11,352 nucleotides of DNA from Gemmataceae bacterium (GTDB lineage Bacteria > Planctomycetota > Planctomycetia > Gemmatales > Gemmataceae), in assembly GCA_947490035.1 (NCBI GenBank), contig CANLGS010000056.1:1-11352 (forward strand), read 5' to 3'. The translations under genes were made by a program, and so were the position numbers. Under the pieces are notes generated by a model. The model worked only from the letters and a program-made list of their open reading frames with translations, did no database searches and had not been told where the DNA came from. The first letter of the stretch is position 1. Each line of letters begins with the position of its first letter. Of this stretch, positions 3,382 through 10,742 are shown piece after piece.

Positions 3382-3492
3382 GCTCTTGGCTGTTAGCTGT
3401 TTGCTGTTTGCTGTTTGCAAAACCCAAACCGGCGACTGAGCTGCGGGGAAGCCGATTCTGGCTAACGGCCAACAGCTAACAGCCAACGGCTT
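3382..3492. repeat. Heptamer inverted repeat between rpsM and rpsK
   Basis: From 3389 to 3416 the sequence is four tandem 7-base units (gctgtta, then gctgttt three times). The opposite arm from 3461 is also heptameric (gctaacg, gccaaca, gctaaca, gccaacg). The core, 3387-3402 with 3471-3486, is a perfect 16-bp inverted match; flanking bases pair imperfectly. The element ends about 3 bases after the rpsM stop codon and begins about 12 bases before the rpsK ATG, so it fills the gap. Confidence 0.9.
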
Positions 3493-3495
3493 CCA

Positions 3496-3879
3496 CTACC
3501 GCATGTCCTTGACGCCCTTCTTGCCGGCGACCGTCTTGCGGATGCCCTTGCGGGTGCGGGCGTTCGTCTTGGAGCGCTGGCCGCGGACCGGCAGGTTCTT
3601 GCGGTGCCGTTCGCCACGGTAGCACTTGATTTCCTTGAGCCGCGCGATGTTCGAGCCTTCGACGCGGCGGAGCGGCCCCTCGACGAGGTACTCCTTGTCG
3701 AGCAGCACGGCGATCTCGGCGATCTCTTTGTCGGTCAGCTCTTTGGCCCGCCGCTGCGGGTCGATCTTGAGCTTGTCGCACACTTCCAAGGACGTCGTCG
3801 GCCCGATCCCGCGGATGTACCGCAGCGAGATGTGGGTCGGCTTGTCCGGCGGAAGGTCAACGCCTTGAATACGGGGCAT
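3496..3879 (-). CDS. rpsM: 30S ribosomal protein S13
   Basis: Small-subunit head protein that contacts the large subunit and the P-site tRNA. The 127-residue product has the normal start MPRIQGVDLPPDKP, the helix-hairpin-helix stretch SLRYIRGIGPTTS at about 18-30, and the C-terminal basic motif RGERHRKNLPVRGQRSKTNARTR broken here only by family variation, ending KKGVKDMR. Its length is normal. The bases before the ATG (gaaaactaccc) hold no Shine-Dalgarno, and the arm of a heptamer inverted repeat starts 10 bases upstream. It follows rpmJ as in the canonical alpha operon. Confidence 0.97.
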   Translation of the reverse strand: MPRIQGVDLPPDKPTHISLRYIRGIGPTTSLEVCDKLKIDPQRRAKELTDKEIAEIAVLLDKEYLVEGPLRRVEGSNIARLKEIKCYRGERHRKNLPVRGQRSKTNARTRKGIRKTVAGKKGVKDMR

Positions 3880-3889
3880 GGGTAGTTTT

Positions 3890-3996
3890 CAGTGTTCAGT
3901 ATTCGGTGTTCAGTAAAGCAGGTTCAGACCTCGGCGTCCGGTTTCAGAGAACCGCTTGGTTCGGCCTGAAAACTGGACACGGAAAACTGAACACTG
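3890..3996. repeat. Heptamer inverted repeat between rpmJ and rpsM
   Basis: The left arm from 3890 reads as 7-base units (cagtgtt, cagtatt, cggtgtt). The right arm from 3966 reads ctgaaaa, ctggaca, cggaaaa, ctgaaca, ctg. The outer 11 bases pair perfectly (3890-3900 with 3986-3996) and the inner units pair with mismatches. A nested hairpin lies in the middle (gaacc-gctt-ggttc, 3949-3962, flanked by tttcag/ctgaaa). The element ends 6 bases after the rpmJ stop and begins 10 bases before the rpsM ATG. Confidence 0.85.
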
Positions 3997-4002
3997 CGCC
4001 GA

Positions 4003-4116
4003 TTAGCCTTGCCGCTGCTTGTGCCGCGGGTCTTCGCAGATCACGCGCACGACACCCTTCCGCTTGATGAGCTTGCACTTGTCGCAGATCCGTCGCACGC
4101 TGGCTCGCACCTTCAT
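4003..4116 (-). CDS. rpmJ: 50S ribosomal protein L36
   Basis: Smallest large-subunit protein, a zinc ribbon on 23S rRNA. The 37-residue product starts MKVRASVRRICDKCKLIKRKG and ends CEDPRHKQRQG. The zinc ligands C11, C14, C27 and H32 of the standard (zinc-containing) L36 are all present. The length is exactly typical. A much longer open frame runs in from upstream, but only this portion resembles a protein family. No clear Shine-Dalgarno is seen (ttgggtgcccc before the ATG). infA, which often precedes rpmJ, is not between it and map. Confidence 0.96.
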   Translation of the reverse strand: MKVRASVRRICDKCKLIKRKGVVRVICEDPRHKQRQG

Positions 4117-4199
4117 GGGGCACCCAAAGTCCGAAAAAGCCGTACACTTCCGGTAAACCTTCAATCTAGCGGGGGCCACAAAACCGACAAGTGGCAGAT

Positions 4200-4239
4200 G
4201 GCGGATTCTTGCCTTCCGCCTGCGAAGCCGCAAGCGGCT
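4200..4239. repeat. Two small hairpins and a solitary repeat arm at the end of map
   Basis: A 6-bp stem (ggcgga 4200-4205, tccgcc 4215-4220) and a second 6-bp stem with a 2-base loop (4226-4239) that overlaps the map stop codon. Bases 4219-4239 match 6532-6552, one arm of the secY-adk inverted repeat, at 20 of 21 positions. Here I find no opposing arm in the gap, so this looks like a solo copy. The remainder of the 4117-4199 gap shows nothing recognisable and no infA. Confidence 0.7.
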
Positions 4240-9346: not shown

Positions 9347-9454
9347 GTAGGTGCCGCGAGCCGAGCGGCACAGCCGCACAACTGGTGTCGCTTCGAGGAG
9401 ATCCGTATCGCCCCCACGCGGGTCAGCCCGTGCCGCTCGGCAAGCGGCACCTAC
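9347..9454. repeat. 25-bp inverted repeat between rplR and rpsE
   Basis: Bases 9347-9371 and 9430-9454 pair at 23 of 25 positions, with the two differences side by side in the middle. The loop is 58 bases. Each arm is itself a small hairpin (gtgccgc, 7-base loop, gcggcac), so two short stems are an alternative to one long one. It ends 7 bases after the rplR stop and begins 57 bases before the rpsE ATG. It is not heptameric, and the loop shows nothing gene-like. Confidence 0.9.
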
Positions 9455-9461
9455 CCGGAAC

Positions 9462-9986
9462 TTACTTCTTATCGCCTTCCGGCTTCTTCTTCTCTTTCAT
9501 GGCGAAGTCGCCCTTCGGCTTCGCGTCCTTTTTCTCGCCCTTGGGCTTCGCTTCCTTGACCGCAGGCGCGGGCGCCTCGGTCTTTTCCTTCGGGGCCATC
9601 TTCGCCTTCATCGCGTCGAGGTCGGTGCAAACCAACCCGGCTTCGGTGGCCGCGACCGCGAGCGCCGCGATGCGCCCGTGGAACCGGAACGCGCCGCGGT
9701 CGAACGCCGCCACGGTGATGCCCTTGGCCTTCGCCGCTTCCGCGAGCTTGCGGCCCACTTCACTGGCCGCCTTCACGTTGCCGCCGTGCTTCAGACCGGA
9801 GCCTTTGCCCTGGCTGGTCGCGGCGGCGAGCGTGACGCCGTTGAGGTCGTCGATCAACTGCGCGGAGATGTGCAGGTTACTGCGGCTCACGCTCAGACGC
9901 GGCTTCAGCGGCGTGCCGTAGATGGCCTTGCGCACGCGGTACCGCCGCCGCTCCGCCCGCTTCAACTTGTGCTTCTGTGCGTTCAT
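9462..9986 (-). CDS. rplR: 50S ribosomal protein L18 with charged tail
   Basis: Binds 5S rRNA in the central protuberance of the large subunit. Residues 1-118 match L18 from the basic start (KHKLKRAERRRYRVRKAIYGT), through KPRLSVSRSNLHISAQLIDD (28-47), to AFDRGAFRFHGRIAALAVAATEAGL (94-118). The family normally ends there at about 115-120 residues. This protein continues to 174 with a Lys/Glu/Ala/Pro-rich, low-complexity tail (119-174) that is probably disordered. AGGGA lies 10 bases before the ATG, slightly far. The order rplF-rplR-rpsE is standard. Confidence 0.97.
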   Translation of the reverse strand: MNAQKHKLKRAERRRYRVRKAIYGTPLKPRLSVSRSNLHISAQLIDDLNGVTLAAATSQGKGSGLKHGGNVKAASEVGRKLAEAAKAKGITVAAFDRGAFRFHGRIAALAVAATEAGLVCTDLDAMKAKMAPKEKTEAPAPAVKEAKPKGEKKDAKPKGDFAMKEKKKPEGDKK

Positions 9987-9998
9987 CTTGCTCGTCCC

Positions 9999-10081
9999 TG
10001 GTCATGAGTCGTGGGCCATTGGCTGAACGCCGAGGTGCGTTCGTCAACGACAGGGGACTGATGACGGATGCCGAATGACCA
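9999..10081. repeat. Degenerate heptamer inverted repeat between rplF and rplR
   Basis: From 10001 the sequence divides into 7-base units (gtcatga, gtcgtgg, gccattg). Near 10060-10081 the units tgacgga, tgccgaa and tgacca read in the opposite sense. Only the outer 7 bases pair exactly (tggtcat 9999-10005 with atgacca 10075-10081). A central stem gaacgc/gcgttc (10025-10030 with 10037-10042) also forms. The element ends 4 bases after the rplF stop and begins 12 bases before the rplR ATG. It is the most eroded example in the window. Confidence 0.6.
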
Positions 10082-10085
10082 ACAA

Positions 10086-10643
10086 CTACTTGCCAGCAGC
10101 GAAGGACTTGCCTTCCTTGCGGCGGACGACTTCGTTCTCGTACCGTACACCCTTGCCCTTGTACGGCTCCGGCTTGCGGCTCGCGCGAATCTCCGCGGCG
10201 AACTGGCCGACCTTCTGCTTGTCCGCGCCGCTCACGACGATGGTCGTGGGGTCGGGCACGGCGACGGTGATCCCCGCCGGCGGCATGTGGACGATGCGGT
10301 TGGCGAACCCGACCGTCAGTTCGACGCCGGCGGTGGGACCGGAGCCTTTCGCCGCGGCCTGGAAGCCGACGCCCTCGATCTTCAACTTCTTGGAATAGCC
10401 GGTGGTGACACCGACGACCATGTTGTTGATGAGCGCGCGGGTCAGGCCGTGGAGCGCGCGGTTCTGGCGCACGTCGTTGGGCCGCGTGACCTTGAGCGAC
10501 TTCCCGTCGGACTCGACCTTCATGTTCGGGTGCGCGGTGAGTTCGAGTTTGCCTTTCGGCCCCTCGACCTTCACGTTCCCGCCGTCCACCGCGATCTTCA
10601 CCCCAGCGGGGATGGGGATCGGCTGCTTTCCAATACGCGACAT
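10086..10643 (-). CDS. rplF: 50S ribosomal protein L6
   Basis: Large-subunit protein beside the sarcin-ricin loop, at the factor-binding site. The 185-residue product has two repeated L6 domains: the first starts SRIGKQPIPIPAGVKI, and the second carries the signature PEPYKGKGVRYENE (158-171) near the end. RALHGLTRALINNMVVGVTTGY (62-82) lies between them. The length is normal (about 180). A purine-rich GGGGG lies about 8 bases before the ATG and is only a fair ribosome-binding site; it abuts the arm of a heptamer repeat. The stop is TAG. Confidence 0.97.
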   Translation of the reverse strand: MSRIGKQPIPIPAGVKIAVDGGNVKVEGPKGKLELTAHPNMKVESDGKSLKVTRPNDVRQNRALHGLTRALINNMVVGVTTGYSKKLKIEGVGFQAAAKGSGPTAGVELTVGFANRIVHMPPAGITVAVPDPTTIVVSGADKQKVGQFAAEIRASRKPEPYKGKGVRYENEVVRRKEGKSFAAGK

Positions 10644-10655
10644 CTCTAAACCCCC

Positions 10656-10742
10656 AGTTCCAAGTTCCAGAGTTCAGAGTTCCAAGTGAGGAACAGAACG
10701 CTGAGGTCAACTTGGAACTTGGAACTGTTGGAACTTGGAACT
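10656..10742. repeat. Heptamer inverted repeat between rpsH and rplF
   Basis: The left arm begins with two agttcca units and continues with slipped variants (agttcag, agttcca). The right arm carries acttgga units, twice near 10710 and once near 10733. The outer 13 bases (10656-10668 with 10730-10742) and inner 10 bases (10678-10687 with 10710-10719) pair perfectly, with a slipped stretch between. The element ends 5 bases after the rpsH stop and begins 12 bases before the rplF ATG. Confidence 0.9.

Follow-up and report, generated by a model that had tools for sequence, protein, structure and literature searches.

Why should the gaps of an essential ribosomal-protein operon carry hairpins that share an architecture and not a sequence? 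The question is raised by an 11,352-nt stretch of a Gemmataceae bacterium (contig CANLGS010000056.1 of assembly GCA_947490035.1; hereafter the window), which is contig C56 of a metagenome-assembled genome (4.67 Mb, 754 contigs, and 68% complete). The minus strand of the window has the gene order S8-L6-L18-S5-L15-secY-adk-unknown protein-tRNA-Ile-map-L36-S13-S11-S4-rpoA-L17, in which map, S4, L15, SecY, and L18 have Pfam matches and the remaining operon genes were named from sequence. A first-pass annotation of this DNA had pointed to six gaps as inverted repeats built of 7-base units. We propose, with confidence slightly above even, that these heptamer hairpins belong to dispersed hairpin repeats that resemble REPINs (doublets of repetitive extragenic palindromic, or REP, sequences that form hairpins), that have arrays of heptamers as arms, and that have been partly rewritten in place.

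Five of the six gaps hold an intact hairpin, all on the minus strand. The one in the S13-S11 gap (3381..3491) has arms at 3381-3411 and 3461-3491 that are 84% complementary and built of GCTGTTA/GCTGTTT units. The L36-S13 hairpin (3890..3996; arms 3890-3914 and 3972-3996, 88% complementary) has the unit CAGTGTT of the AGTGTTC family, which has further members in L010, L021, and L026. Between tRNA-Ile and map (5061..5166), two perfect 31-nt arms (5061-5091 and 5136-5166, 100% complementary) consist of units with CGGA plus three variable bases, and both arms share the order of the first three units. The L15-secY hairpin (8147..8237; arms 8147-8177 and 8207-8237, 97% complementary) is built of AGTGAGG and has an ortholog in the sister genome G004. 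In the S8-L6 gap (10655..10742; unit AGTTCCA), small indels interrupt the arms, leaving one piece that is 100% complementary (10655-10669 and 10713-10727) and a second at 10671-10687 and 10710-10726. Tandem Repeats Finder reported a period of 7 in all five gaps. The sixth, between L6 and L18 (9999..10081, minus strand; GTCATTN family), is a decayed hairpin: it has no inverted repeat of at least 15 nt and an inverted-repeat score of 7, but in the match of the sequence with itself at a shift of seven bases (lag 7) its two-arm statistic exceeds 300 shuffles. The same gap is intact in G004 (inverted-repeat score 17 and lag-7 match 18/21) and retains a single array in G008, G010, and G013. In total, 7 of the 12 tested window gaps had p < 0.01 at lag 7, namely, these six (each p 0.0033 with 300 shuffles) and the map-L36 gap (4117-4238; p 0.0066), which is without a notable inverted repeat and may be a chance result.

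The seven-base period is not confined to the operon. For a genome-scale sample, we used 61 contigs (L009-L028, L109-L148, and the window; 888,498 bp), in which gene calls by a simple in-frame hexamer model yielded 784 genes at 85% coding; this caller misses none of the 15 operon genes but starts S4 and the unknown protein too late. Gaps reaching 40 nt numbered 633; a lag-7 match of at least 17/21 was found in 28 of them and in 2 coding stretches, whereas none of 10 dinucleotide shuffles had a gap with such a match (a later shuffle run gave 1, 0, and 0). Among lags 2-30, only lags 14 (21 gaps) and 21 (8 gaps) exceeded 5 gaps besides lag 7. Another 40 contigs had such arrays in 10/249 gaps (0, 0, and 0 in shuffles), and a 400-kb stretch of a second genome, G014, was noisier, with 9/283 gaps compared with 2, 1, and 3 in shuffles. 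In these samples, the genome scan that the first-pass annotation had proposed as a check places the period above shuffled sequence and between genes, more weakly in G014.

At a threshold of 21/28, four of the five intact window units recur in the sampled contigs and form dispersed families; the AGTTCCA unit (10656-10742) had no second copy there. The six sequences were said to be unrelated, which is correct within the window but does not extend to the four units with relatives elsewhere. Likewise, the statement that they are not copies of one element holds in that several families exist, but these four units belong to dispersed families and are not inventions specific to their sites. Ungapped inverted repeats with a score of at least 16 were found in 221/633, 92/249, and 42/283 (G014) gaps, with 0 in one shuffle of each set; about one-third of the sampled gaps of at least 40 nt in the window genome carry a long inverted repeat, and these belong to many families. 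Because such repeats are far more common than heptamer arrays, the heptamer hairpins are one class within a larger genomic load of hairpin repeats. At a score of at least 14, the 240 elements of the first set fell into 24 clusters of two or more and 38 singletons, with the largest cluster merging several families. Within clusters, arms are near-identical and spacers variable; some arms have a palindromic core and some begin with GTAG. Some loops enclose a second complete repeat (e.g., L014 18235). One gap was searched against plasmids by Blast and had no match.

Among the 32 heptamer hairpins with an inverted repeat located in co-directional gaps, the median distance is 5.5 nt from the stop codon to the arm and 18 nt to the next start, with a median of 76% of the gap spanned and a median spacer of 48.5 nt; by eye, spacers are more variable than arms. 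Arm polarity is fixed, with arms of the CGGA core (13/13) and of the TCAG core (3/3) each in one orientation, and the 5′ arm has more G than C in 35/36. In G004, 20 arrays were chosen on sequence criteria only; a partner array was present within 200 nt for 13 of these, with 13/13 pairs face to face, and the other 7/20 lack a partner array of three units within that distance. Pairing is incomplete also among the 51 arrays chosen by period alone, of which 36 sit in gaps that score at least 12 for an inverted repeat.

Gap type further distinguishes these elements. After exclusion of gaps at contig edges, heptamer arrays (at least 16/21) were found in 45/540 co-directional, 1/102 convergent, and 2/149 divergent gaps (45/540 vs. 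3/251; Fisher p 2e-5), whereas other inverted repeats in the same gaps numbered 189 co-directional, 53 convergent, and 21 divergent, a different placement (co-directional vs. convergent plus divergent; p 8e-4). Hairpins that start a few bases past stop codons could be taken for intrinsic transcription terminators or attenuators, an explanation that we consider extremely improbable given that convergent gaps are avoided and that the elements lie inside an operon of essential genes. Moreover, within 12 nt after the hairpin, a T-run of at least 5 was found in 0/32 heptamer elements and one of at least 4 in 2/32, and a scan of the window for terminator-like sites found 8 compared with a shuffle mean of 10.0. 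Under the REPIN-like reading, location between co-directional genes, a few bases past the upstream stop codon, may arise because those spacers tolerate insertion.

The ribosomal operon is enriched in heptamer arrays. In 17 sister genomes, 29/139 operon gaps carry one, compared with 40/528 elsewhere in the sampled genome (p 2.7e-5) and 10/170 in G014 (p 1e-4); these p values overstate the evidence, as the sister genomes are not independent. The window operon itself has arrays in 5/12 gaps and was chosen for them, which is not the case for the sister genomes. The inverted, gap-filling arrangement in an essential operon had been called unusual. This holds in part, as the operon is enriched, but heptamer hairpins are also found outside it, and direct heptamer repeats within ribosomal-protein operons had been described earlier in Beggiatoaceae (PMC4679880).

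Placement between co-directional genes and operon enrichment also speak for intercistronic RNA-processing hairpins, in which an RNA duplex of ~25-30 bp is cut by RNase III or shields mRNA ends. RNase III recognizes mostly duplex and little sequence, which would explain why architecture is kept while sequence is free. All five intact heptamer gaps fold strongly (z -4.1 to -10.6; -2.0 for the decayed gap), with the antisense strand about equal. Furthermore, the tRNA cluster of G010 has heptamer hairpins between tRNA-Thr and tRNA-Leu and between tRNA-Tyr and tRNA-Glu, and one window hairpin follows tRNA-Ile (anticodon TAT; 5175..5247, minus strand). However, arm mismatches on the transcribed strand have no excess of G.T over A.C in heptamers (13 vs. 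18) or in other inverted repeats (54 vs. 56); RNA-level pairing selection is therefore unsupported, because it would favor G.T. Moreover, no hairpin could be detected at the corresponding gap of several sister species. We regard RNase III processing as the best of the functional rivals, although a rather unlikely one. Translational coupling through loop-out of the spacer, suggested by the large part of the gap that is spanned, was dropped as the whole reason because the G010 hairpins lie between tRNA genes. Given strong folds on both strands, no T-runs of at least 5, and no strand bias of mismatches, a passive or selfish repeat appears likeliest.

Eighteen other genomes are assigned to the genus of the window genome, which is probably Gemmata-like. 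To follow the same gaps between species, the orthologous operon, anchored on the S11 gene (2989..3369, minus strand), was compared in 17 same-genus genomes, three outside the genus, and L030, with many stretches partial (contig ends and upstream genes missing); S11 is 96% identical in the close relative Planctomycetaceae bacterium isolate DS2.012 (L029). Among the 164 orthologous gaps of at least 45 nt, 58 had p < 0.01 at lag 7, compared with 3, 7, 8, 2, 6, 4, and 4 at lags 5, 6, 8, 9, 10, 11, and 13, respectively. Counting the window and its genus, the lag-7 test was passed by S13-S11 in 9/18, L36-S13 in 10/15, S11-S4 in 9/18, rpoA-L17 in 9/18, L6-L18 in 6/8, and S4-rpoA in 5/18 genomes, and by other gaps in 0 to 2. 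The passing genomes have at least six kinds of unit in S13-S11 alone: GCTGTTA (window), GGAGTCA-like (G004), GTGTTTN (G001 and G002), GTCAGCC (G006), AGTGGGC-like (G014 and G016), and AGTTGCC (G015). At orthologous operon gaps, the architecture often persists while the unit differs. A common architecture without a common sequence, as first described for the window, is thus also found between species at one gap.

The 47 arrays of this comparison reduce to 35 distinct consensus units. Units from the same gap of genomes that are not close were more alike (4.67/7) than those from different gaps and genomes (4.23/7; p 4e-5), where "close" is our own grouping from protein identities and unit pairs are not independent; random heptamers score 3.79. 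Judging from the units, this pattern may mean that arrays descend in place while their units drift or are replaced, and not that units are homogenized throughout a genome. Such homogenization, in which each genome would have its own dialect of units, was considered and dropped, as units of one genome across gaps (4.44/7) are not significantly more alike (p 0.16). One comparison concerns the fate of a whole element: at the site of the tRNA-Tyr/tRNA-Glu hairpin of G010 (L339), the close relative G008 (L340) has a tRNA-Asp gene in surroundings that are 96-97% identical, which suggests that an element can be lost or exchanged. G013 aligns over the same G010 stretch (88-899 of 901) at 90%.

How might a gap keep its hairpin while the heptamer changes? 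In the mechanism that we propose, heptamer hairpins would be dispersed repeats whose two tandem arrays always face each other across a spacer of low conservation. The arrays would later be rewritten through 7-nt slippage and template switching between arms, such that the heptamer of a gap may drift or be exchanged for another without loss of the hairpin. We observed directly that the elements are dispersed, have a fixed polarity, prefer certain gaps, and at orthologous gaps retain their architecture under changes of the unit; their movement and the role of slippage and hairpin templating in the rewriting we infer. Unit variants differ in 7-nt steps, and the two arms of one element share unit order beyond permuted arms in a weakly positive test (P 0.024, n = 8, for the sole core with enough elements). 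In the L15-secY gap, the window and G004 have common flanks and the AGTGAGG unit, and G004 has an extra stretch in both arms, which both nested insertion and templated copying would explain.

The stepwise variants and the partly common unit order would also fit a mutational by-product, in which heptamers slip and short inverted seeds prime fold-back synthesis, so that palindromes arise and grow in unselected spacers without movement or selection, and so would the lack of a linked transposase described below. Independent local events would not be expected to give the fixed polarity of the element pairs tested, or to place one unit in gaps of a genome that lie far apart, and we consider this explanation distinctly unlikely. 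Another tentative possibility, which we judge unlikely, is that a process working in 7-nt steps writes both arms jointly and rewrites them over time, with selection acting on form and not on sequence in the ribosomal operon. If so, gaps of essential genes would retain a set hairpin geometry and polarity while the words vary by species.

Many arrays have a fixed core and two or three variable positions, such as CGGANNN and, in G004, CGAGTNN (by eye, among the matches listed). This would suit repeated binding sites at which a protein recognizes a short core at 7-base intervals, perhaps on RNA, an idea put forward for the TAACTGA repeats. For such sites, however, the inverted arrangement is unneeded and the core should not vary by gap and species as it does; we find this explanation very improbable. 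A hidden common core was considered as well, since AGT seemed to be one in the window genome. It was rejected over 149 genomes of the phylum, in which AGT, GAT, and ATG arrays were found in 48, 42, and 28, respectively, and the TGA control in about as many as AGT (by eye). The AGT pattern, which is blind to any array without AGT in all five units, also matched 15/36 mixed-taxa genomes (36 of 80 loci), with loci named Chloroflexi/Chloroflexota (L071 and L081), Hydrogenedentota (L065), and Deltaproteobacteria (L070) beyond the phylum. Similar arrays occur in sister species, have a patchy distribution within the phylum, and extend to a few other phyla.

The distribution of transposases was compared with that of the arrays, with Y1_Tnp (PF01797) as the sole transposase family examined. 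In the genus, 16/19 genomes have Y1_Tnp, and precisely the three that lack it (G008, G012, and G017) also lack five-unit AGT arrays (16 both, 3 neither, and 0 one only; p 0.001, perhaps from only two independent events). Over the 149 phylum genomes, 40 have arrays and Y1_Tnp, 8 arrays only, 54 transposase only, and 47 neither (p 5e-4), in a table counted by hand from genome rows with genomes absent from the match rows scored as none. A CAGGGC-GCCCTG palindrome that resembles the composite repeat at 752-877 of the window occurs in 7/30 genus Y1_Tnp loci, which makes the Y1 transposase a candidate agent for that palindrome family and not for the heptamers. The first-pass annotation would have been refuted if each repeat had matched its own site-specific transposable element; at these 30 loci of this one family, no such match was seen.

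Several observations weigh against REPIN-like elements that are rewritten in place. No heptamer array was found near the gene in the 30 Y1_Tnp loci, which were scanned whole (~2-3.4 kb each); the single array of at least 16/21 lies at the far locus end of L218, >1 kb from the gene. Among the 48 array-bearing phylum genomes, 8 have no Y1_Tnp match, including G070 (247 pattern matches) and G174 (135), which are 83 and 85% complete, respectively. No clean empty site was found, and the single close comparison (G008/G010) has the tRNA-Asp gene instead. In S13-S11, 9/18 genomes fail the lag-7 test; among these, G009 and G003 have inverted-repeat scores of 31 and 20, the others at most 12, and G017 and G012 nothing. 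One outgroup gap passes the same test (G020, L36-S13). A wider comparison gave 21.0 of 28 for arms within an element and 23.9 between elements, the opposite of arm-to-arm templating, although the family threshold behind this test favors "between". Finally, the contrast in placement is weaker in G014 (10/170 co-directional, 2/44 convergent, and 1/55 divergent).

Apart from the heptamer hairpins, four other inverted repeats lie in the window, all on the minus strand: the composite palindrome of the rpoA-L17 gap (752..877), with 47-nt perfect arms and kin at several Y1 transposase loci; a member of the GGTGAACCGCGACCG family in S4-rpoA (2032..2112); one that begins with GTAG, of the GTAGGTGCCGC family, in L18-S5 (9347..9454); and one in secY-adk (6493..6552). 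Several gaps also contain conserved motifs outside the repeats. On the minus strand of the S11-S4 gap (2841-2882), the coding-strand sequence GACNCNGGGGTTCGCC is kept in 18/18 same-genus genomes amid changing repeats. It is a candidate ribosomal-protein leader RNA; a gathering search of the window with Rfam matched only a tRNA. In S4-rpoA (1931-2030, minus strand), just upstream of rpoA, CCGTCTGGYTCG is present in 15/18 same-genus genomes and a motif ending in CCGACGG in 17/18, distinct from the exchanged palindrome alongside. In rpoA-L17 (690-715, minus strand), GGCACGG occurs in 17/18 same-genus genomes, followed by GGTTCTT at a near-constant distance in 14/18; this stretch overlaps a terminator-like match at 716-699. 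A protein of 164 residues without a Pfam family is encoded at 5311-5805, between adk and the tRNA; it was seen only in G004 and G001, with many operon stretches stopping before that site.

Heptamer repeats have been reported in several phyla without an agreed origin. The same operon gaps with different heptamers across sister species provide a natural series for gain, loss, polarity, and rewriting, which could separate a mobile origin from an RNA-structural role. The short tandemly repeated repetitive (STRR) heptamers of cyanobacteria are described as direct arrays that lie in gaps and are patchy between species. The planctomycete arrays are likewise intergenic, tandem, and patchy, and differ in being paired face to face.

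Among the other known heptamers, the TAACTGA direct repeats of Beggiatoaceae are intergenic and also lie inside ribosomal-protein operons (MacGregor, 2015; PMC4679880). They are patchy over distant phyla, and size changes between two Cyanothece strains are mostly in 7-nt steps. The planctomycete heptamers are many and inverted, and they begin close to the stop codon and take up a large part of the gap, unlike that one unit in direct arrays just upstream of start codons. The heptameric G-quadruplex repeats of Xanthomonas and Nostoc are a further case of heptamers enriched in bacterial genomes; those are G-rich quadruplex motifs (PMC4692102), whereas hairpins of several compositions are found here. 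Among the papers listed in searches of the open-access PMC literature, none was found with a title or abstract start that describes inverted heptamer arrays in planctomycetes. REPINs (PMC3116915; PMC3733652) differ in other ways: by eye, the heptamer arms have no GTAG/CGTC end tag or palindromic REP core, and no adjoining tyrosine transposase of the REP-associated (RAYT/Y1_Tnp) kind flanked by heptamers was found in the 30 loci. Other inverted repeats of this genome, such as the one at 9347-9454 and the relatives of 752-877, are a better fit to REPs. In common with REPINs, the heptamer hairpins have a pair of conserved arms, inverted to each other, that enclose a more variable spacer, can form hairpins, lie between genes, pair mostly in one orientation, belong to several families per genome, and, with the exception of AGTTCCA, occur in multiple dispersed copies.

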